From the NCBI GenBank assembly GCA_020160875.1, contig JAIUPE010000005.1, positions 18,481 to 75,087 of the forward strand: DNA of 56,607 nucleotides. Direction: 5' to 3'. The DNA comes from Pseudomonadota bacterium (GTDB lineage: Bacteria > Pseudomonadota > Alphaproteobacteria > Rhodospirillales > Rhodospirillaceae). Shown here piece by piece: positions 46,286 through 56,381 of this stretch. Numbering within the stretch: the first letter of the stretch is position 1; every line of letters begins with the position of its first letter. Position numbers and translations under genes: made by a program. The notes beneath the pieces were generated by a model, which worked only from the letters and a program-made list of their open reading frames with translations, did no database searches and was not told the DNA's origin.

Positions 46286-46816
46286 CTAAAACCGCAGACT
46301 GCCGACGATTCCAAACGCGGGCTTGCGTCCCCCGATCATGGGCATGAGCGTCACATTTTCGTCCATGTGGTCGACAAGAAAATAAGCCGAGGCATGCGCG
46401 ATGGCCGCCGAGGCAATCACATCGCGCCAGCGATGGAAGTCGCCGTCCACCCGACTGACCGCAACGGCGGTGGCGGCAAGCTCAGCCGGCAAACCCCACT
46501 CCCAGCCGTAGCGATAATGGATGAACGCGGCGCCGGTGAATGCCCAGGCCGTGTGCCCGGACGGAAACGAACGGCGCCCGCCGTTAGGCCGTGTGTCGTC
46601 GACGGCATGCTTCAGCGCATAGGTGGCGCCGAGCGTGATCGCACCGCTCGCCAGGAGCTGTTTGAGACCGTCGGTGTCGTCCTGTGCCAAAGACAGAATC
46701 GCCGCACCGGCGGGAAGCGCGTAACGGCCAACATCGCCATAGGTGGTAAAAGTTTCACCAGCGGCGGCCGGCGAAAGGGGAAGAAGGGCGAAGGACAACG
46801 CCCCCACAAGTCGCAT
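46286..46816 (-). CDS. PAP2-family phosphatase, secreted or membrane-attached
   Basis: About 176 residues from ATG 46816. A signal peptide (MRLVGALSFALLPLSPAAAG) is followed by the three-part phosphatase signature: KHAVDDTRPNGG, SFPSGHTAWAF and SRVDGDFHRWRDVIASAAI with the catalytic His residues. It may remove phosphate from a lipid such as undecaprenyl pyrophosphate or phosphatidic acid. GTG 46828 (four codons earlier) is an alternative start. It is convergent with the histidine kinase, with 3 nt between stops. Confidence 0.85.
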   Translation of the reverse strand: MRLVGALSFALLPLSPAAAGETFTTYGDVGRYALPAGAAILSLAQDDTDGLKQLLASGAITLGATYALKHAVDDTRPNGGRRSFPSGHTAWAFTGAAFIHYRYGWEWGLPAELAATAVAVSRVDGDFHRWRDVIASAAIAHASAYFLVDHMDENVTLMPMIGGRKPAFGIVGSLRF

Positions 46817-47207
46817 CAGACCGGTCACGCGTATTTCCCAAAAATGGCAGACCCCGTTCTCTAGCGCATCCCGGGCCAGGACCCCCATCAGGTAGTGGTA
46901 ACAGGCGTCCCATTTTCGTCCGGCAACCGCCCCGGGCATAACCTGTATTAACCTCGCTTTTTACTTAAAAACCAAATGCTTCCGAGACCCGCAGCGCCTC
47001 AAAAAGCCTTGACTTTACAAGATGAACGGGGAGTAATTTATGCGCAATCGAGTTTTGGCCTGACGTTGCTAGCACCACCCGCTTCGGCCCCGGGGCCTTT
47101 TACCTTGGGCGGCGCTCACGAGTCACTCCCAACACTGGTTGTCGGACGCCGCGCGACGGGTGCGCGGTATTTCGCGCAAGTGGGCGCATCGACGGAGAGA
47201 GACGCAA
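46817..47207. other. Intergenic region with cold-shock promoter and leader
   Basis: About 390 nt between the PAP2 gene (minus) and the cold-shock gene (plus). No protein gene was seen. The right part holds a likely promoter (47009-47039), leaving a leader of about 165 nt before the cold-shock start. Long leaders are typical of cspA-type genes, whose mRNA folding responds to temperature. No specific fold could be assigned. Confidence 0.55.
47009..47039 (+). promoter_or_regulatory. Predicted promoter of the cold-shock gene
   Basis: TTGACT at 47009-47014, then 17-19 nt, then AGTAATTT (47032-47039) as the -10 region. It stands in a locally AT-rich stretch inside a GC-rich gap, about 170 nt before the gene. 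Confidence 0.5.
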
Positions 47208-47792: not shown

Positions 47793-48779
47793 CTACAGAT
47801 ACTTGTGAGCCCGAAACCAGGCGAGAGCGTCGCTGATCGCTTCGTCCACGGGGCGCGCCGTATAGCCCAGCTCACGCCCCGCCTTCGCGCTGGAAAAAAA
47901 CATCCGCTTGCGCGCGAGCTTCAAGCCATCCACCGTCACGAACGGCTCCCCGGTGTTGAAGACGCGCGCGAAGAATTCCGCGGCATAGGCGATCGGCATG
48001 ATCGCCGCGTTGGGGATCTGGATCGTCGGCGCCTTACGGTTCACCTGCGCGGCGATGCGCGCGAGGATTTGCTGAAGGGTGAGGTTTTCCGCCCCAAGCA
48101 CATAGCGCTCCCCCACCTTGCCTTTGTCGTGCGCGAGTAAATGTCCGCGCGCAACGTCGTCGACGTGCACGATATTGAGCCCCGTATCGACAAAGGCCGG
48201 CATGCGGCCAGCGGCCGCCTCGACAATGGTACGGCCCGTGGGCGTCGGCTTCACGTCGCGCGGGCCCACCGGCGCCGTGGGGTTAACAATGACGACCGGA
48301 AGGCCGGAAGCGGCTAGCGCGCGCACGCGCTCTTCGGCGTCGAACTTCGAGCGTTTGTAAGGGCCGATCATATCCGCCGCGCTCACCGGCGTGACCTCAT
48401 CGGCCTCGCGGCCATCGGGGAAAAGGCCGAGGGTCGCAACGGAACTGGTATAGACCAGGCGCGAAGCCCCCGCGTCGGCGGCGGCTCGCAACAAGCCCGC
48501 GGTTGCTTCGACATTCGTCGCAAACATGGCCGCGGGATCGCGTGTCCACAGGCGGTAGTCCGCGGCGACGTGGTAAACACTCGACGTCCCTTGCACCGCT
48601 TTCCGCCGGGCGTCCGGATCGCGCAAGTCGCCCTCGACAATCTCGACTTTCAGCCCCTCGAGATTGCGGCGATCGCTGCCCGCGCGCGCCATCACGCGCA
48701 CGGTTTCGCCGCGGGCCAGCAACGCGCGGGCCACAGCCGAACCAACAAACCCGGTCGCGCCCGTCACCAGCGCGGTCAT
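47793..48779 (-). CDS. hpnA: Hopanoid-associated NAD-dependent sugar epimerase HpnA
   Basis: A 328-residue short-chain dehydrogenase/reductase of the extended type. The cofactor loop is VTGATGFVGSAVA (about 5-17). VYHVAADYRLWTRDP, VYTSSVATLG, IGPYKRSKFDAEE (catalytic Tyr and Lys), PRDVKPTPTGRTIVE and VDTGLNIVHVDDVARGHLL closely match the HpnA family found in hopanoid clusters. The true substrate is not established; a sugar attached to hopanoids or its precursor is assumed. Its start overlaps the end of a small, apparently broken gene (ATGA). Confidence 0.92.
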   Translation of the reverse strand: MTALVTGATGFVGSAVARALLARGETVRVMARAGSDRRNLEGLKVEIVEGDLRDPDARRKAVQGTSSVYHVAADYRLWTRDPAAMFATNVEATAGLLRAAADAGASRLVYTSSVATLGLFPDGREADEVTPVSAADMIGPYKRSKFDAEERVRALAASGLPVVIVNPTAPVGPRDVKPTPTGRTIVEAAAGRMPAFVDTGLNIVHVDDVARGHLLAHDKGKVGERYVLGAENLTLQQILARIAAQVNRKAPTIQIPNAAIMPIAYAAEFFARVFNTGEPFVTVDGLKLARKRMFFSSAKAGRELGYTARPVDEAISDALAWFRAHKYL

Positions 48780-48951
48780 TGCGTGAAGCTTTTTTTCATG
48801 ACGTCGCGCGTGCGGTCCGGCGGATCGTCAACGATGTCGCCAAGTCCGGAACAGCCACGACGCACCTGCCGTTATGCGCGGCGAGCTCCGCGTACAACAT
48901 CTTCCGTGCGTCTGGCGCGACATTCTGCGTGAGTTCCAGCTTGGGATTCAT
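48778..48951 (-). pseudogene. Small gene with an apparent frameshift, upstream of hpnA
   Basis: From the ATG at 48951 a frame begins MNPKLELTQNVAPDARKML and then loses coding character after about 36 codons. In the next frame a sequence LGDIVDDPPDRTRDVMKK runs to a TGA that overlaps the hpnA start (ATGA), as expected of a real coupled gene. One missing base near 48841-48850 (in TCCGGACTTGG on the minus strand) would join them into about 57 residues. Alternatively only the 29-codon downstream piece (GTG start) is real. Family unknown. Confidence 0.4.
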
Positions 48952-48978
48952 ATCTCATTCGAGCATGATGCACCCCAC

Positions 48979-49794
48979 ATGCACAAGCGCCCCCCGCAGA
49001 TCATCTTTACCGCCGATGACTTCGGCCTTTGTGACGAAGTGAACGAAGCCGTCGAACGCGGCCATCGCCACGGCGTGCTGTCGGCTGCCAGTCTCATGAT
49101 CGGCGCACCGGCGGCCAGAGACGCGATCGAACGCGCGCGCCGCATGCCGCGCCTCGCCGTCGGGTTGCACCTCACGCTGGTGGAGGGACGGCCCGTGCTT
49201 CCGCCGGCGGTTCTGCCGGCGCTGCTCAAGCCGGACGGCGCGTTCCATGACAATCTCATCGGCGCCGGCGTGCGGTGGTTTTTCTCTCCCGCCGCCCGCC
49301 GGCAGCTGCGTGCGGAGATCCACGCGCAATTCGAGGCTTTTCGCGCAACCGGTCTCACGCTGGATCATGTGAACGCACACAATCACATGCACCTGCATCC
49401 CACCGTCCTCGGCTGCATTCTCGAGGCCGCGAAGGATTTCGACGTGCGCGCCGTACGTTTACCCTACGAGGCGCCCGCGGCCCTGCTGACCCCGTGGATG
49501 GGGCTGATGAAAAAGCGGCTTACCCGCGCCGGCCTCGCCTTCAATGACCGTGTGGTCGGCATGCACGCGACCGGCCAGGTGAATGAAGACCTTGTCCTGC
49601 GGAAGCTGGACGGCTTGCTTCCGGGGACCACGGAATTCTACCTCCACCCCGCCATATGCACGACGGCCGCGCTGGAGGCGGCGGCGCCGGGCTACGACCG
49701 CACCGGCGAACTCGCGGCCCTGACAAGCGCCCGCGTCGGCGCCCGGCTCAGGGAATTGGGTCTCACACCCGCGTGTTTTCGCGATATTTCCTGA
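48979..49794 (+). CDS. hpnK: Hopanoid biosynthesis deacetylase HpnK (YdjC family)
   Basis: A 271-residue YdjC/ChbG-type deacetylase. IIFTADDFGLCDEVNEAVERG, quoted only at its TADDFGL metal site, and LDHVNAHNHMHLHP carry the metal-binding Asp and His residues. In Burkholderia, HpnK is known to remove acetate from N-acetylglucosaminyl-bacteriohopanetetrol made by HpnI. The hpnI gene lies 4.4 kb downstream. The start is ATG 48979, with a weak ribosome site. It leads a plus-strand run with the PhyH-like gene and hpnN. Confidence 0.9.
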   Translation: MHKRPPQIIFTADDFGLCDEVNEAVERGHRHGVLSAASLMIGAPAARDAIERARRMPRLAVGLHLTLVEGRPVLPPAVLPALLKPDGAFHDNLIGAGVRWFFSPAARRQLRAEIHAQFEAFRATGLTLDHVNAHNHMHLHPTVLGCILEAAKDFDVRAVRLPYEAPAALLTPWMGLMKKRLTRAGLAFNDRVVGMHATGQVNEDLVLRKLDGLLPGTTEFYLHPAICTTAALEAAAPGYDRTGELAALTSARVGARLRELGLTPACFRDIS

Positions 49795-49872
49795 TTTTTG
49801 CGTGATGGAGCGGCTTGCATTCCCCCGAGCCGCCGATAGGATGCGCCCAACAATAAGACTGGGGAACACCCT

Positions 49873-50727
49873 TTGAACGCCCGCACGCTGACCTCCAACG
49901 GCGCTCCAATTCCGTTCACGCCGCAGTACTTCGGTGCCCTTCGCGAAAGTCATACCGGCCTTCCGGCGGAAACCCTTCGCGCGCGCTACGCCGAGGACGG
50001 CTACGTCCTGCTGAAGGGTGCGCTGGCGTCCGAGGCGGTCTTCGATTTGCGCGAAGCTTACTTCCGCCTGTTTGATTCGAGCTTCTTCAAGGATGGCGAC
50101 GCGCGCCGCGGCGTTTTCTCCGGCGTTGAGCCGAAAGGTATGCCAGGCCATGGCCTCGCCGGTCACCCGGCTCATACTTTTGTCCGCAGCGACGTATTTC
50201 GCGCCTTCACCGGCGCTGCCGCGATGAAGACCATCGCTGAAACGTTTTTTGACGGTCCGGCGGAACTTATCCGCCGCACACCACTGCGCCATTTTATACC
50301 GGGTCGCAAACGCTCATCGCGGGCGCACCTCGATCGCACCTACATCGAGGGCGTCGCCGCAGACGTCGTGACGATTTGGGTGCCGCTCGGCGACTGCCCG
50401 ATCGATGTCGGCGGCCTTCTATACATGGACGGTTCGCACGAGGACACCGTGCTGGAGAATGTACGCGCCAGCGCGCCCAACGATCGCACGGATATGCGCC
50501 CAATCACGCACGACCTGAAATGGCTGTCGGATTTCAGCGGCCGCCGGTGGCTGTACGCCGACTATGCGGCGGGAGATGTTGTTGTGCATTCCCCGGCCAT
50601 CGTCCATGCCTCGCTCGATGGCGAATCGGACCTGATGCGAGTGTCGACGGACGTACGCTTCCGGCGCGCGGGCAGCCCCTCGGATCCGCGCTGGCTGAAC
50701 GACTGGTCCGCGGACGACGGCTACTAG
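49873..50727 (+). CDS. Phytanoyl-CoA dioxygenase (PhyH)-family Fe(II)/2-oxoglutarate oxygenase
   Basis: A 284-residue non-heme iron oxygenase. The metal triad is His152-x-Asp154 (SRAHLDRTY) and a distal His at 245 (VHSPAIVHASL; His239 is a second possibility). Arg256 is placed to bind 2-oxoglutarate. FARYAEDGYVLLKGAL-type opening and GGLLYMDGSHED fit the family. The start is TTG 49873, with GGGG 7 nt before it; no suitable ATG exists nearby. It stands between hpnK and hpnN (3-nt gap to hpnN), so it probably hydroxylates a hopanoid or its attached group. That substrate is inferred from position. Confidence 0.88.
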   Translation: MNARTLTSNGAPIPFTPQYFGALRESHTGLPAETLRARYAEDGYVLLKGALASEAVFDLREAYFRLFDSSFFKDGDARRGVFSGVEPKGMPGHGLAGHPAHTFVRSDVFRAFTGAAAMKTIAETFFDGPAELIRRTPLRHFIPGRKRSSRAHLDRTYIEGVAADVVTIWVPLGDCPIDVGGLLYMDGSHEDTVLENVRASAPNDRTDMRPITHDLKWLSDFSGRRWLYADYAAGDVVVHSPAIVHASLDGESDLMRVSTDVRFRRAGSPSDPRWLNDWSADDGY

Positions 50728-50730
50728 CCC

Positions 50731-53334
50731 ATGAGCCTCGCGCGTACCGCAACGCGCGTGGTCCACGCGAGCCGCAGCCGCCCATGGCTCGTGATCGCGA
50801 TCATCGTCATCATGGCCGTTGCTTCCGCCGCAGGCGCGGTGCGAACCCTTGGCGTCAATACGGACACGACAGCCCTGTTCGACGCGGATCTTCCCTTCCG
50901 TGTCGCGGAACGGGACTTCGATCGCCAGTTTCCGGGCGAAATCGATCTCGTCGTCACCGTGATCGACGGGCCGTCCGCCGCAAAAGCAAACAAAGCGGCC
51001 GACAGCCTCGCCGCGCGCCTTGCCAGGAACACGGCCCTCTTCGTAAGCGCCTTTAATCCGACGGGCGGTCCCTTCTTTGAAAAGAACGGCGTACTTTATC
51101 TCTCGACGGCCGAGATCGATGCCATTGGCGCCGAACTCGCAGCCGCGCAACCGCTCCTCGGCGCCATATCGAATGACCGCAGCGCGCGAGGACTTTTCCG
51201 CCTTCTCGCGCTCGCATTCACGGCCGCGGCGGAAGGAGAGCCCTCGACAGCAGGCATTGCGCCGACCGCCGCACAAGCCGCAGCCGCAATCAACGCCACC
51301 CTGGATGGAAAGCCAGCCGCCGTCGATTGGCCGGGCCTTTTCAGTCAATTTCAGTCCACCTCGCAGCCACGCGCCTTCGTGATCGCCAAGGCCAAACTTG
51401 ATCTTACCGCCCTTGAGCAGGGCGCCGACGCCACCGCTTTCATACGCGCGCAAGCGGCCGACCTCGGCCTGACCACCGACAACGGTTACCGCGTAAGACT
51501 TACCGGTGAAGTTCCACTGACCGATGAAGAGTTCGCAACCATCGCGACCGGCACGACCTTGGCCGGTGTCATGGCGGTGGCCGGTGTCGGTCTTCTGATG
51601 GTGCTGGCGCTGGGATCGTTCAGACTGGTGGGCGTGACGCTCTTCACACTGTTGATCGGGTTCCTGTTCACCCTGGGTTGGGCGGCGATCAGCGTGGGGG
51701 AAATCAATCTGATTTCCATCGCTTTCGTCTTCATGTTTGTCGGCATCGCGGTCGACTTCGCGATGCAGTACTGCCTGCACTACCGCGAAGAGCGCCTTAA
51801 ACGCGGCTCGGTCAACGACACGGAGGCGCTCGACGTCGCCGGCGGACACATGGCCGAACCGCTCCTTCTGAGCGCCGCCACCGTTGCGATAGGCTTTTTC
51901 TGTTTCCTGCCGACCGCCTACCGCGGCGTCGCCGAATTGGGCGTGATCGCGGGCGGCGGGATCATCATCGCGTTCCTCCTGAATTTCACGCTGATGCCGG
52001 CGTTGCTCCGACTCACAAAATTAAAGCCGGAAACCTCTCCCGTGGGTTTCGTACGGGCGGCGCCCTTCAATCGTATGCTTCTCAATCACCGCCGGCGGGT
52101 CATGGTGGGCGCGGCCGTTCTAATGGCCGTCGCGACATTGGCGCTTCCGCGCCTGGTGTTCGATTTCGACCCCATGAAGCTCAAAGACCCCCATACGGAA
52201 TCCATGTCCACGGCGCTGGAGCTGATGGACGATCCGCTGGTGAATGCGAATACCCTTAGCGTTCTTGTTAAAACGCGCGACGAGATCCAGGCGCTTTCCG
52301 AGACCCTGGAGAAACTGCCGGACGTCGGGCGTGTGCAAAGCCTGTTCGATCTTGTGCCTGAAGATCAGGACACAAAACTCACAGCGCTTAGCGATATGGC
52401 GCTGTTCCTCGACCCCGTGGTTAATCCGCTACATCAGGCAGCGGCGCCGACCGCCGCGGACATCCTCGATGCCGCGCGCGCCGCACGCGCCGCGACCGAA
52501 ACCTATCTCGCCTCGCCCCATGCCGCCGGACCATTGCGCGACGCCGCGGCTCAGGTTAGCGATGCGCTTCACCGTTTCATCGACCGCAACGATCCCGCCC
52601 TTGGCGAACGTCTCTCAAGGGCCCTGCTTGCCGGCTTCGACGATGCTCTCGCCCCGCTTCGCGCGATGCTGAGCGCCGCGCCGGTCAGCCTGGACGACCT
52701 GCCGGCGCCGCTGCGCGAGACCTATGTGGCGCAGGATGGACGTTACCGCCTCCAGATATTCCCGAAAGACAACAGCCGAAACATCGACGCCATGGCACGG
52801 TTCACGAACGCGGTGCGCGCCGTCGCGCCCGATGCCTATGGCCCACCGGTCGTGATCTATGAAAGCGGACGGATCGTCACACAAGCCTTCGCGACCGCCG
52901 GCGGCCTCGCACTGGTCGCGATTACCTTCGTCCTCCTCGTCATGTTCCGCCGCATCGGCGACGTGCTGCGCGTGCTCGCGCCGCTTCTACTGGCGGTGAC
53001 CCTAACCCTCGGAACATGCGCCTTGATCGGGTTCCCGCTGAACTTCGCCAATATCATCGCGTTGCCGCTCTTGCTGGCGGTCGGCGTCGCCTATCCGATT
53101 CACTTCGTTTCGGCGTGGCGTGAGGGCGAGGCCCTGCTGCTCTCCTCACCGGCGGGACGCGGCATGTTGTTCAGCGCCCTCACCGATACCGCGGCCTTCG
53201 GGAGCATGTCGCTTGCCACCCACGCCGGCACATCGAGCATGGGCCTACTTCTCACCCTTGCCCTGGCGTTCAACCTTCTTGCGACGTTGATTGTTCTGCC
53301 GGCGATTCTTGGTGCGCCGGCCAAGCGACACTAA
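50731..53334 (+). CDS. hpnN: Hopanoid-associated RND transporter HpnN
   Basis: An 867-residue MMPL/RND inner-membrane protein with about twelve helices: one near residues 15-35, five at about 265-430, one near 450 and five at about 715-865, with two large periplasmic loops between. VDFAMQYCLHYREERLKRG and the repeated C-terminal helix set match the HpnN family. In Rhodopseudomonas and Burkholderia HpnN moves hopanoids to the outer membrane. It follows the PhyH-like gene by 3 nt. Its stop overlaps the convergent hpnM gene. Confidence 0.93.
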   Translation: MSLARTATRVVHASRSRPWLVIAIIVIMAVASAAGAVRTLGVNTDTTALFDADLPFRVAERDFDRQFPGEIDLVVTVIDGPSAAKANKAADSLAARLARNTALFVSAFNPTGGPFFEKNGVLYLSTAEIDAIGAELAAAQPLLGAISNDRSARGLFRLLALAFTAAAEGEPSTAGIAPTAAQAAAAINATLDGKPAAVDWPGLFSQFQSTSQPRAFVIAKAKLDLTALEQGADATAFIRAQAADLGLTTDNGYRVRLTGEVPLTDEEFATIATGTTLAGVMAVAGVGLLMVLALGSFRLVGVTLFTLLIGFLFTLGWAAISVGEINLISIAFVFMFVGIAVDFAMQYCLHYREERLKRGSVNDTEALDVAGGHMAEPLLLSAATVAIGFFCFLPTAYRGVAELGVIAGGGIIIAFLLNFTLMPALLRLTKLKPETSPVGFVRAAPFNRMLLNHRRRVMVGAAVLMAVATLALPRLVFDFDPMKLKDPHTESMSTALELMDDPLVNANTLSVLVKTRDEIQALSETLEKLPDVGRVQSLFDLVPEDQDTKLTALSDMALFLDPVVNPLHQAAAPTAADILDAARAARAATETYLASPHAAGPLRDAAAQVSDALHRFIDRNDPALGERLSRALLAGFDDALAPLRAMLSAAPVSLDDLPAPLRETYVAQDGRYRLQIFPKDNSRNIDAMARFTNAVRAVAPDAYGPPVVIYESGRIVTQAFATAGGLALVAITFVLLVMFRRIGDVLRVLAPLLLAVTLTLGTCALIGFPLNFANIIALPLLLAVGVAYPIHFVSAWREGEALLLSSPAGRGMLFSALTDTAAFGSMSLATHAGTSSMGLLLTLALAFNLLATLIVLPAILGAPAKRH

Positions 53335-53969
53335 CCGGCAGTTTCAAGCTTATCGGTCAACGCGTTCAGATGCGCGATCAGGGCCGGAGCGCCGCCGCTA
53401 TTAAATACCCCGGAGAAATCAGAACGCCGCAGGGCGAGTTGACTCACCGACCCATCAAGCAGGACATCGATCACCTGCCACGGGCCCTCATTCTTTTCCG
53501 CCGGTTTTTGACGAAGGCGGTAATTGAGCGCGGTGGCTTTTCCGGATTTCGGTTTGATCTCGGTGTTCACCATGACGTCGGGCTTTTGCGGATCGGTGAA
53601 GTCCGTAATGATGAACGCCTCGCCGTTCCAACTCTTGAACTGCGATGCATAGGTGGCGATCGTCCACTCGGCGAACGCTTGGGTCAGTTTTTTGCGCTCG
53701 TCTTCACTCAGCTTTTGCCAGCCGCCGCCGACCGAAATCCGCGTCATCGTTTCCAGATCGAAAACCTCCTGCACGACGGGGGCCATCTTCTCCTTGCGCG
53801 CGGCGAAGTTCCGCATCGCGCCTTGCCTCATATTGTCCAGCAGCGCGGCGTTCAGCTTCTCGACCACCATGACGGCCGCCGGCTTGTCTTTGACCGACAC
53901 GGCATGGGCCGGCATGCTCGCCGCGAACGCGACAAAACAGCATAGAAGCAGATAAGTCACGCAGCGCAC
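53331..53969 (-). CDS. hpnM: Hopanoid-associated MlaC/Ttg2-like periplasmic protein HpnM
   Basis: A 212-residue protein with a signal peptide (about 1-23, ending PAHAVS) and an MlaC-type lipid-binding domain (FDLETMTRISVGGGWQKLS, FAEWTIATYASQF and WQVIDVLLDGSVSQLALRRSDF are typical; each quoted in part). It probably ferries a lipid through the periplasm for the hopanoid system together with HpnN. It is transcribed opposite to hpnN and hpnI. Confidence 0.9.
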   Translation of the reverse strand: MRCVTYLLLCCFVAFAASMPAHAVSVKDKPAAVMVVEKLNAALLDNMRQGAMRNFAARKEKMAPVVQEVFDLETMTRISVGGGWQKLSEDERKKLTQAFAEWTIATYASQFKSWNGEAFIITDFTDPQKPDVMVNTEIKPKSGKATALNYRLRQKPAEKNEGPWQVIDVLLDGSVSQLALRRSDFSGVFNSGGAPALIAHLNALTDKLETAG

Positions 53970-54186
53970 GGTTCACTCCCTGAAGAGCCTCGCATTCGGC
54001 CTATACTGCGCCCTAAAATCTGTCAATTCCAAGGCTCCGGCGCGCAAAGCGCGCTCATGGACTTAGAATGGAACACCGTGTTTTTAGGCGCCATGGGCGC
54101 GCTCACGCTCGACAATGGCCGCCGGAACACGATAGAGGTACCGGCCCCTTTCGCACCAAGCGTGAGGGTCGTAAGCAGAGCGCGGC
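53970..54186. other. Divergent spacer between hpnM and hpnI
   Basis: 217 nt holding the promoters of hpnM (minus) and hpnI (plus). The frames crossing it continue into hpnI out of phase and are shadows. No clear operator was seen. Confidence 0.5.
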
Positions 54187-55362
54187 GTGACTCTCTTTTT
54201 CAATATCCTGCAAAGCCTCCTTCTTGCTCCCGTGATCGGCGGCGGCGTTTTTTGCCTTCTGTGTGTCTGGGCCGTCGCGCGTTTCGTGAAGCGGGCGTCT
54301 CCGGCCAGCGCCTTTCAGCCACCGGTCACCGTGTTGAAGCCGATTTACGGCCACGACAAAGGCCTCGAGGAGAATTTGCTGAGCCTGTGCCGTCAGGATT
54401 ATCCCGACTTTCAAATCGTGATGTCGGTGCAGCGCGAGAACGATCCGGCGCTGCCGCTGCTCCGCAAGTTGGCGGCCGACTTTCCGGACCGCGTAACGCT
54501 GGTCGTCAAAACCAGCGAGCCCGTCGTCAATGGAAAGGTCCAAAACCTGGTGAACGGCCTTGCCGCCGCAAAGCATGAGATTCTCGTGATCAGCGATAGC
54601 GATGTCCGCGTGCGTGCCGACTATTTGAGAAGCATCGTCGCCCCGCTCGAAGATCCGGGCGTGGGGTATGTCTGCACCTTGTACCGGTCCGTGGACGCCG
54701 GGTCGTTCCAGGAGAAGATGGAGCTTCTGAGCCTGAACGCCGACTTCGTTCCGAGCCTTGTTTTCTCGGCCGTGACCGGCGCTGCGGATTTCTGCATCGG
54801 CGCGACCGTGGCCTTCCGCAAAACCGATCTCTCGGCCATCGGCGGGATGGCCGACCTTGGAAACTATCTGGTCGAGGACTACGAACTCGGACGCCGTCTG
54901 CTCGCGATGGGCAGGCGGATGGTCCTGCTGCCTCACACCGTCGAAATCGTGGCGGATTACCCCACTTTCCGCGGCTGGTGGCACCACCAGATCTATTGGG
55001 ACCAGAACACCTGGGCGGCCAATCCGACGGGGTTTGCCCTCACCATCCTGACCCGCGCCGTGCCTTTTGCGCTGCTTTTCGCGCTTCTTCGTGGCTTCGA
55101 TGACACAGGATTGAACATTCTCCTGGCGACCCTTGTGCTACGCCTTGGCACGGCGGAAGTGATTGCGCACATTCTCGGGGACCGGGAGGGCCAGCGGGCC
55201 GTGTGGCTTTTGCCGGTCCGGGACTTGTTCGCGTTGGTGTCGTGGTATATCGCCCTCACGCGTAGAACCTTCGAGTGGCGCGGTTTGCGCTTCGGCCTTA
55301 CGAAGGATGGACGTATCGTTCCGCGCGACAACGGTGTCGTGCTTCCAGGGATAAAACCGTGA
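54187..55362 (+). CDS. hpnI: Hopanoid glycosyltransferase HpnI (GT2, ceramide-glucosyltransferase-like)
   Basis: A 391-residue membrane glycosyltransferase with an N-terminal helix (about 5-30) and C-terminal helices (about 285-365). The catalytic domain has TVLKPIYGHDKGLEENL, the DSD metal motif at 137-139, the acceptor acid in LVEDYELGRRL, and HHQIYWDQNTW in the place of the QxxRW motif. HpnI is known to add N-acetylglucosamine to bacteriohopanetetrol. The start is GTG 54187. Its stop overlaps the epimerase start by GTGA. Confidence 0.92.
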   Translation: MTLFFNILQSLLLAPVIGGGVFCLLCVWAVARFVKRASPASAFQPPVTVLKPIYGHDKGLEENLLSLCRQDYPDFQIVMSVQRENDPALPLLRKLAADFPDRVTLVVKTSEPVVNGKVQNLVNGLAAAKHEILVISDSDVRVRADYLRSIVAPLEDPGVGYVCTLYRSVDAGSFQEKMELLSLNADFVPSLVFSAVTGAADFCIGATVAFRKTDLSAIGGMADLGNYLVEDYELGRRLLAMGRRMVLLPHTVEIVADYPTFRGWWHHQIYWDQNTWAANPTGFALTILTRAVPFALLFALLRGFDDTGLNILLATLVLRLGTAEVIAHILGDREGQRAVWLLPVRDLFALVSWYIALTRRTFEWRGLRFGLTKDGRIVPRDNGVVLPGIKP

Positions 55363-56381
55363 CTTCGAACTCACAGTTGGAATTCGTTACCAGGTCCGGT
55401 CATGTTCTGGTCACCGGCGGCGCCGGGTTCATCGGCAGCCACGCCGTCGATCATCTGCTCGCGCGCGGCTGTCGCGTCACCGTAATCGACAACCTCTCGA
55501 CCGGTTATCGGGCCAACCTTGTGCAATGCGAGGGCCGTGCCGACTTCCAATTCATCGAAGCCGACATTACCCAGGACCTCTCCGCGGCTTGCGAGCGTGC
55601 CGTGAAACACTTCGGCGCCATTGACCGCATCACCCACTTCGCCGCGCAAACGGCCGTGCCGCTATCCGTCGAAGACCCGGTCACCGATATCCAAGTAAAC
55701 CTCGGCGGCACCGCACGCCTCTTGGAATACGCGCGCCGCAACGGCGTTCAGAAAGTCGTGTTCGCATCATCCTCGGCTATTTATGACGACGATGCGCCCG
55801 TACCCGTCAGTGAAACGTCGACCGCACGGCCCGCATCGCCTTATGGAATCGACAAACTCGCCGGTGAATTCTTTTTGGACTACTACGCGCGTTATCACGG
55901 CGTCGCCTTCACGGCTTTACGCTTCATGAACGTGTACGGCCCGCGCCAAGACCCTTCCAGCTACTACTCCGGCGTCATCTCGATCTTCCTCGACCGCGCC
56001 GTGGCCGGCCAGCCCATCACCATATTCGACGACGGCGAACAGACGCGCGACTTCGTCTATGTGACGGACGTGGCGCATGCCGTGGTCACGGCCGCCCTAT
56101 CGGACGCCGGCAACGGCGCGATCATCAATATTGGCACCGGTCTCGAAGTGTCGATCAACCAAATCACGCGGACGATCATCGAACTCACGGGCTCGGCCTC
56201 GCAGGTACGTTATGAGCCCCCGCGTCCAGGCGATATCCGCCGCTCGGTGACGACAATGACCCGTGCGCAAGACCTTCTTGCGTTCGCCCCGCAAGTCGAT
56301 CTCCGCGAAGGCCTTGCACAGACGCTCGCCTGGGTCCGCGATCAGGCGCTCGCCAATACCCGCCGCGGATCCGCGGCTTAA
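55359..56381 (+). CDS. NAD-dependent nucleotide-sugar epimerase/dehydratase (GalE-like)
   Basis: A 340-residue extended short-chain dehydrogenase. The NAD loop is VTGGAGFIGSH (18-28), the catalytic Tyr162 and Lys166 are in SPYGIDK, and VFASSSAIY supplies the Ser. FMNVYGPRQDPSSYYSGVIS is typical of UDP-glucose 4-epimerase-like enzymes. The start is GTG 55359 inside the hpnI stop (GTGA). Coupling to hpnI suggests it makes or changes the sugar donor for a hopanoid head group, perhaps a sugar other than glucosamine. Confidence 0.88.
   Translation: MTSNSQLEFVTRSGHVLVTGGAGFIGSHAVDHLLARGCRVTVIDNLSTGYRANLVQCEGRADFQFIEADITQDLSAACERAVKHFGAIDRITHFAAQTAVPLSVEDPVTDIQVNLGGTARLLEYARRNGVQKVVFASSSAIYDDDAPVPVSETSTARPASPYGIDKLAGEFFLDYYARYHGVAFTALRFMNVYGPRQDPSSYYSGVISIFLDRAVAGQPITIFDDGEQTRDFVYVTDVAHAVVTAALSDAGNGAIINIGTGLEVSINQITRTIIELTGSASQVRYEPPRPGDIRRSVTTMTRAQDLLAFAPQVDLREGLAQTLAWVRDQALANTRRGSAA

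Follow-up and report, generated by a model that had tools for sequence, protein, structure and literature searches.

A predicted PhyH-family oxygenase accompanies the hopanoid amino-sugar genes hpnI and hpnK in uncultured bacteria

Introduction

Hopanoids, the bacterial counterpart of sterols, are widespread, and hopanoid fossils are used as biomarkers, so that each gene responsible for a head group or a side chain makes it easier to assign a lipid to its source. Here, we address the function of one gene in a 56,607-nucleotide stretch of contig JAIUPE010000005.1 from a Rhodospirillaceae genome (hereafter, the window). This gene, at positions 49,873 to 50,727 and denoted here phyH, was placed by a first-pass annotation of the sequence between hpnK and hpnN, 3 bases before the latter, and was proposed to encode a PhyH-family oxygenase that hydroxylates hopanoids before their export. 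The location is confirmed: hpnK ends 78 nt upstream of phyH, and 3 nt separate the end of phyH from the start of hpnN (Table 1). No PhyH-type enzyme assigned to hopanoids was found among the listed titles and abstract openings of the open-licence literature, although a report elsewhere is possible; in the excerpts of two hopanoid papers in which 'phytanoyl-CoA' appears (PMC12654047, PMC5395668), the term refers to EctD in one and to fatty-acid oxidation in the other. The questions are whether this gene belongs to the hopanoid pathway at all and, if so, to which of its steps.

Results

An intact oxygenase gene

The phyH open reading frame (ORF) begins with TTG, the earliest of the three common start codons past the closest in-frame stop on the 5' side (TAG at 49837-49839, 33 nt ahead of the start), and the TTG is preceded by GGGGAA. 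The ORF is not a chance one because the frame is kept in other genomes at 49-87% identity and the ratio of nonsynonymous to synonymous substitution rates (dN/dS) against the nearest relative is 0.10, similar to that of the neighbouring genes. The product matches the Pfam family PhyH (PF05721) with 53.5 bits (cut-off 22) over positions 1-211 of the 213-position profile, and no second Pfam family is matched at E<=0.001. The residues H152, D154, H245 and R256, which form the HxD...H site and its accompanying Arg, are invariant in 19/19 orthologues and in every filled row among 26 outgroup rows; from general knowledge of the family, we take the first three to be metal ligands and R256 to be the Arg that binds 2-oxoglutarate. 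In the AlphaFold2 model (mean predicted local distance difference test score, 89.7), entries with the PhyH fold, a double-stranded beta-helix, match across most of the chain. The family and the fold are shared with human phytanoyl-CoA 2-hydroxylase (PDB 2a1x), which gave PF05721 its name. The Pfam match and the invariance of the residues bear out the initial reading of an intact catalytic site, and the gene encodes an intact PhyH-family protein with a predicted Fe(II)/2-oxoglutarate oxygenase activity. The subfamily to which this protein belongs has conserved blocks of its own, and the branch that separates it from the outgroups is about 2 changes per site long.

Distribution and neighbourhood of phyH

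We searched 61 genomes for the PhyH protein: the window genome (G000) and 18 more from its genus, 18 from its family and 24 from its order. Of the 18 other members of the genus, 11 carry an intact orthologue (63-87% identity), always in the gene order hpnK-phyH-hpnN. One genome of another genus (G020, 57% identity) also carries an intact orthologue; there, hpnK adjoins phyH and hpnN lies about 5.5 kb away. An alignment scan of 84,980 species, in which each match needs one of two conserved 8-residue motifs, yielded 19 loci (L091-L109), one of which (L108) is a broken copy in the genome G011. Among the 19 intact orthologues, the window included, hpnK is directly upstream of phyH in 16 and hpnI is directly downstream in three (L102-L104). 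In L102 and L104, hpnK is found about 3.5 kb past phyH on the opposite strand; the contig of L103 stops 2.4 kb past hpnI, with no hpnK in view. In four of the 19 loci (L102-L105), hpnN is not adjacent to phyH. We looked for the distribution that had been named at the outset as evidence against a hopanoid link, that is, orthologues located mostly away from hopanoid genes, and found the opposite. Because all 19 intact orthologues adjoin hpnK or hpnI, a hopanoid role of phyH is well supported by its genomic neighbourhood.

When 385 genomes sampled from the class were searched with a profile built from the 19 orthologues, only the window genome gave a match at subfamily level (488 bits; the next match scores 128 bits). 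The nearest outgroup homologues found come from plasmids of Arthrobacter and Rhizobium (35% and 32% identity; profile scores of 185 and 181 bits), and the 17 and 21 kb, respectively, around them contain no match to the hopanoid genes of the window; the Arthrobacter homologue sits amid AraC, MarR and MFS genes. The first-pass annotation suggested an alphaproteobacterial survey; by the record titles of the scan loci, phyH is not confined to that class, since L102 and L104 are titled Gammaproteobacteria bacterium. Of the other records, L109 is titled Sphingomonadales and five are titled Rhodospirillaceae; L103, titled Klebsiella pneumoniae, is a metagenome bin that is probably mislabelled, and the 'Candidatus Marinimicrobia' labels on many same-genus bins look wrong.

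The partners of phyH are hpnI and hpnK

Within the genus, the distribution of phyH coincides exactly with that of the hexosamine genes. HpnK exceeds its cut-off in 12 of the 19 genomes (matches from extended ORFs antisense to hpnA were disregarded), and intact phyH is found in the identical 12. HpnI scores at least 300 bits in these same 12 genomes, over the 310-bit cut-off in eight, and at most 60 bits elsewhere in the genus. The one-sided chance of this phyH/hpnK split would be 2e-5 for independent genomes, but the genomes share ancestry. In a tree built from 22 HpnN sequences, from which G017 was left out (no hpnN found) and in which G005 and G013 are represented by fragments, the phyH/hpnK/hpnI set changes state jointly four times on supported branches (G004+G005, G011, G009, G008+G018), a count that does not separate gain from loss. 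In G004 and G018, hpnA adjoins hpnN with neither hpnK nor phyH in between; in G005, the absence of phyH and hpnK comes from the genome search, the contig ending within hpnN. The G011 genome, rated 100% complete, retains a broken phyH (L067 8568-9404) as well as 25 residues that match the end of hpnK, remnants that represent an intermediate stage of the joint loss of the two genes.

The hpnN gene behaves differently. Among the seven genus genomes that lack hpnK, it is over the cut-off in five (G004, G008, G009, G011, G018) and partial in G005, and it was not found in G017, a 76% complete genome. An export role, with hpnN as the main link, was therefore rejected: hpnN is present in five of the seven genomes without hpnK and does not adjoin phyH in L102-L105. 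Thus, the hopanoid link of the first-pass annotation stands and its choice of partner does not, since phyH tracks hpnI and hpnK, whereas hpnN persists without phyH and hpnK. Judged by gene content and order, the well-supported partners of phyH appear to be the glycosylation genes hpnI and hpnK rather than the export gene.

Independence of the cyclitol step

Among the 12 phyH-containing genomes of the genus, nine have an HpnJ over the cut-off, and one more has it split across two contigs. The remaining two, the window genome and its closest relative, G012, lack HpnJ, and in both of them hpnM directly neighbours hpnI. Among eight genomes reached via the scan loci, HpnJ is absent at E<=1e-60 in five (L102, L103, L104, L109 and L091, the last being the G012 contig) and present in three (L101, L106, L107). 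Absence from a metagenome bin can mean missing sequence; the closed hpnM-hpnI gap backs the absence of hpnJ in the window genome and G012. Squalene-hopene cyclase is present in all nine genomes tested, in one of them as a fragment below the cut-off. A role of PhyH in or after the HpnJ chemistry that yields the cyclitol ether was rejected given that phyH is intact without hpnJ in G000, G012, L102-L104 and L109.

In light of the precedent of Rhodoligotrophos appendicifer, which, according to excerpts of a 2025 alphaproteobacterial survey (PMC12583986), has no hpnJ and contains only bacteriohopanetetrol (BHT) glucosamine, we infer that the window organism would end at a hexosaminyl-hopanoid, with PhyH as its last known tailoring gene.

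A divergent HpnI clade

In a tree of 54 HpnI rows, 20 group together as one clade (support 100/100), and the branch leading to it is 1.3 changes per site long. This clade consists of the 18 rows from phyH-containing genomes together with G403 and G436, both of which lack phyH; L109 is not in the tree because hpnI was not found in its locus. A smaller first tree had suggested that the clade was exclusive to phyH genomes, which was disproved once G403 and G436 were added. Thus, going by the genomes compared, phyH accompanies the divergent HpnI type, and that type does not appear to require phyH. The clade that includes the window HpnI (see also L189 and L190) is far from the usual alphaproteobacterial HpnI, at 29-36% identity, and gamma-labelled bins share the clade.

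The divergent HpnI may use a different acceptor or a different sugar. Later-eluting isomers of BHT glucosamine and of the cyclitol ether are described as unexplained in the survey excerpts (PMC12583986). Given these isomers and the GalE-like short-chain dehydrogenase/reductase (SDR) gene located directly 3' of hpnI, in the window as well as in the syntenic same-genus loci, a hexosamine other than glucosamine on the hopanoid is conceivable. A DegT/DnrJ-type sugar aminotransferase gene adjoins hpnK in two gamma-labelled bins that contain phyH and hpnI and lack hpnJ (L102:13238-14722, L104:13063-14262).

Discussion

The putative reaction

The described HpnI/HpnK pathway, both genes of which are present in 12/12 genus genomes with intact phyH, includes no oxygenase; the loci described here differ in that they also have phyH, in that hpnJ can be missing and in that their hpnI belongs to a divergent clade. 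In the proposed scheme, HpnI would attach an N-acetylhexosamine to BHT, HpnK would then deacetylate the BHT-linked hexosamine, and PhyH, with O2 and 2-oxoglutarate, would oxidise a C-H bond of the hexosaminyl-hopanoid, before or without the action of HpnJ. From the catalytic residues, the PtlH-near fold (see below), the exact link with hpnI and hpnK in the genus and the independence of hpnJ and hpnN, which together make up the computed basis of the proposal, we infer the substrate, hydroxylation as the outcome, and the site of attack. Whatever that site, the substrate would probably be the hexosaminyl-hopanoid made by HpnI and HpnK, which is the simplest candidate because no genome of the genus without the hexosamine genes has an intact phyH and because phyH is independent of the cyclitol step.

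The nearest solved fold to the PhyH model is that of PtlH (1-deoxypentalenic acid 11-beta-hydroxylase, PDB 2rdn/2rdr), whose HxD, distal His and Arg residues align with those of PhyH; this nearness may not be special to the subfamily. The substrate of PtlH, an enzyme of an antibiotic pathway, is a sesquiterpenoid acid and not a membrane triterpenoid. It is also the sole NCBIfam match of the phyH product (NF045813), at 31 bits, far under the cut-off of 550; with about 21% identity and different gene partners, PhyH is not a member of that family. Genes for bacteriohopanepentol and bacteriohopanehexol are stated to be unknown, with no candidates near hpn clusters, in the excerpts of the 2025 survey, where pentol and hexol cyclitol ethers are likewise reported without known genes (PMC12583986). 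Because PhyH is nearest in fold to a terpenoid hydroxylase, and because pentol- and hexol-type glycosides have been described with no gene assigned to them, we slightly prefer, as the site of attack, a side-chain CH2 group by the polyol (C-31 or C-30, giving such glycosides) over the sugar. On the fullest reading, which we advance only tentatively, PhyH might be the first oxygenase dedicated to hopanoid tailoring: in uncultured lineages, it would hydroxylate the side chain of hexosaminyl-BHT at C-31 or C-30, and the products would be amino-sugar hopanoids of the pentol or hexol type.

Several observations weigh against the proposed scheme or the side-chain site. The survey excerpts lean to an oxidation-hydration route over direct hydroxylation (PMC12583986), which speaks against the side-chain site unless direct hydroxylation of a CH2 group by a 2-oxoglutarate oxygenase is admitted. 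The cultured pentol producers named there are not among the 19 scan loci, all of which are titled as metagenome-assembled genomes or uncultured; the scan is motif-limited, and the presence of producer genomes in it was unchecked. By single sequence, PtlH ranks third in the PDB. The four joint changes on the HpnN tree are too few for a significant sign test (p 0.125). In L109, hpnI was not found in the 20.8-kb locus, a search limited to the locus rather than genome-wide, yet the tree label counted it as present. Finally, hpnK occurs without a phyH match in G023, G036, G046 and G054, where it lies beside hpnI and hpnJ and where HpnI is 34-35% identical to that of the window, and G403 and G436 hold a same-clade HpnI and hpnK with no phyH in the opened loci or in the genome (E<=1e-12), so that the divergent HpnI type works without PhyH. 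Because these six genomes have hpnI and hpnK without phyH, the gene is an accessory rather than a core enzyme. On the genomic evidence, phyH is a genuine accessory of the hopanoid amino-sugar branch, conserved and specific to it, and its reaction is putative.

Alternative explanations

PhyH might act on the amino sugar itself, by hydroxylation, oxidation, epimerisation or oxidative deamination, with a new hopanoid head group rather than a pentol as the product; we advance this variant, which with the side-chain site makes up the proposed scheme, as tentatively as the side-chain site itself. Precedents exist among PhyH-fold enzymes of antibiotic pathways that work on amino-sugar natural products, namely, KanJ, SnoK (titled carbocyclase) and SnoN (titled epimerase), and SDR or aminotransferase genes lie in the neighbourhood at some loci with phyH. 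However, the fold similarity of these enzymes to PhyH is below that of the terpenoid hydroxylase PtlH, and pentol and hexol cyclitol ethers are known without genes.

It is improbable that PhyH is a general bacteriohopanepentol synthase that hydroxylates free BHT at C-31 upstream of HpnI. According to the survey excerpts, the pentol and the hexol, for which no genes were found near hpn clusters, occur in Rhodospirillales and Sphingomonadales (PMC12583986), groups that figure in several locus titles. Such an enzyme would need neither hpnI nor hpnK, yet phyH is absent or broken in 7/7 genus genomes that lack these genes, and none of the 19 scan loci is titled Acetobacteraceae, Enhydrobacter or a cultured Sphingomonas strain.

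The view that PhyH is a passenger in the hopanoid operon, a general catabolic oxygenase with another substrate, is very improbable: it could draw on the plasmid homologues that lack hopanoid neighbours, but L102-L104 keep the same partners in another order (phyH-hpnI, not hpnK-phyH), phyH changes repeatedly together with hpnK and hpnI on the tree, and the subfamily stands apart by its long branch and its own conserved blocks.

As an oxygenase tied to the amino-sugar branch, PhyH is a candidate for an unassigned hopanoid step that would be testable via a single gene, and the presence of phyH would predict which uncultured lineages carry an oxygen-requiring hopanoid modification.

Genomic context of the window locus

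Table 1. Features of the hopanoid locus in the window
Feature	Position	Strand	Description	Evidence
phyH	49873..50727	+	Fe(II)/2-oxoglutarate oxygenase (predicted), HpnK/HpnI-linked PhyH subfamily, 284 aa	
hpnK	48874..49794	+	hopanoid hexosamine N-deacetylase, YdjC family	NCBIfam TIGR03473, 341 bits, cut-off 232.6
hpnI	54187..55362	+	hopanoid N-acetylhexosaminyl transferase, divergent clade	NCBIfam TIGR03472, 323 bits, cut-off 310; tree
hpnN	50731..53334	+	hopanoid RND-type transporter, context gene	NCBIfam TIGR03480, 912 bits, cut-off 752
hpnM	53331..53969	-	MlaC-like hopanoid-associated protein, context gene	NCBIfam TIGR03481, 182 bits, cut-off 160
hpnA	47793..48779	-	hopanoid-associated SDR, points away from hpnK, context gene	NCBIfam TIGR03466, 488 bits, cut-off 368
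GalE-like SDR gene	55275..56381	+	NAD-dependent sugar epimerase/dehydratase family	PF01370, 213 bits; best NCBIfam galE, 190 bits, below cut-off 262
hpnM-hpnI gap, 217 nt	53970..54186	.	same-genus relatives hold a radical SAM gene and hpnJ here; neither in the window	

The HpnK profile match begins at residue 42, so the real hpnK start may be internal to the called ORF. The window genome, assembled in 219 contigs, is 90.9% complete; its squalene-hopene cyclase is encoded on a separate contig (747 bits). Three further PhyH-family genes of this genome (C65:8974-9621, C3:94130-94501, C3:16193-16582) lie off the contig that carries the hopanoid cluster.

A radical SAM protein of 386 aa (L062:8912-10072 and relatives; PF04055, with no close NCBIfam match) is encoded directly upstream of hpnJ. 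Its gene is found 5' of hpnJ in 11 of the 14 loci with the flank in view; the usual type of HpnI is encoded at the three exceptions (L141, L143, L191). A row labelled HpnIcan in this comparison, an ORF antisense to hpnJ picked in error, was disregarded. In the window and in G012, the space between hpnM and hpnI has neither the radical SAM gene nor hpnJ. A PAP2-family phosphatase gene (46286-46939 in the window; weak LpxE match, below the cut-off) adjoins hpnA in the window, G012 and G004.
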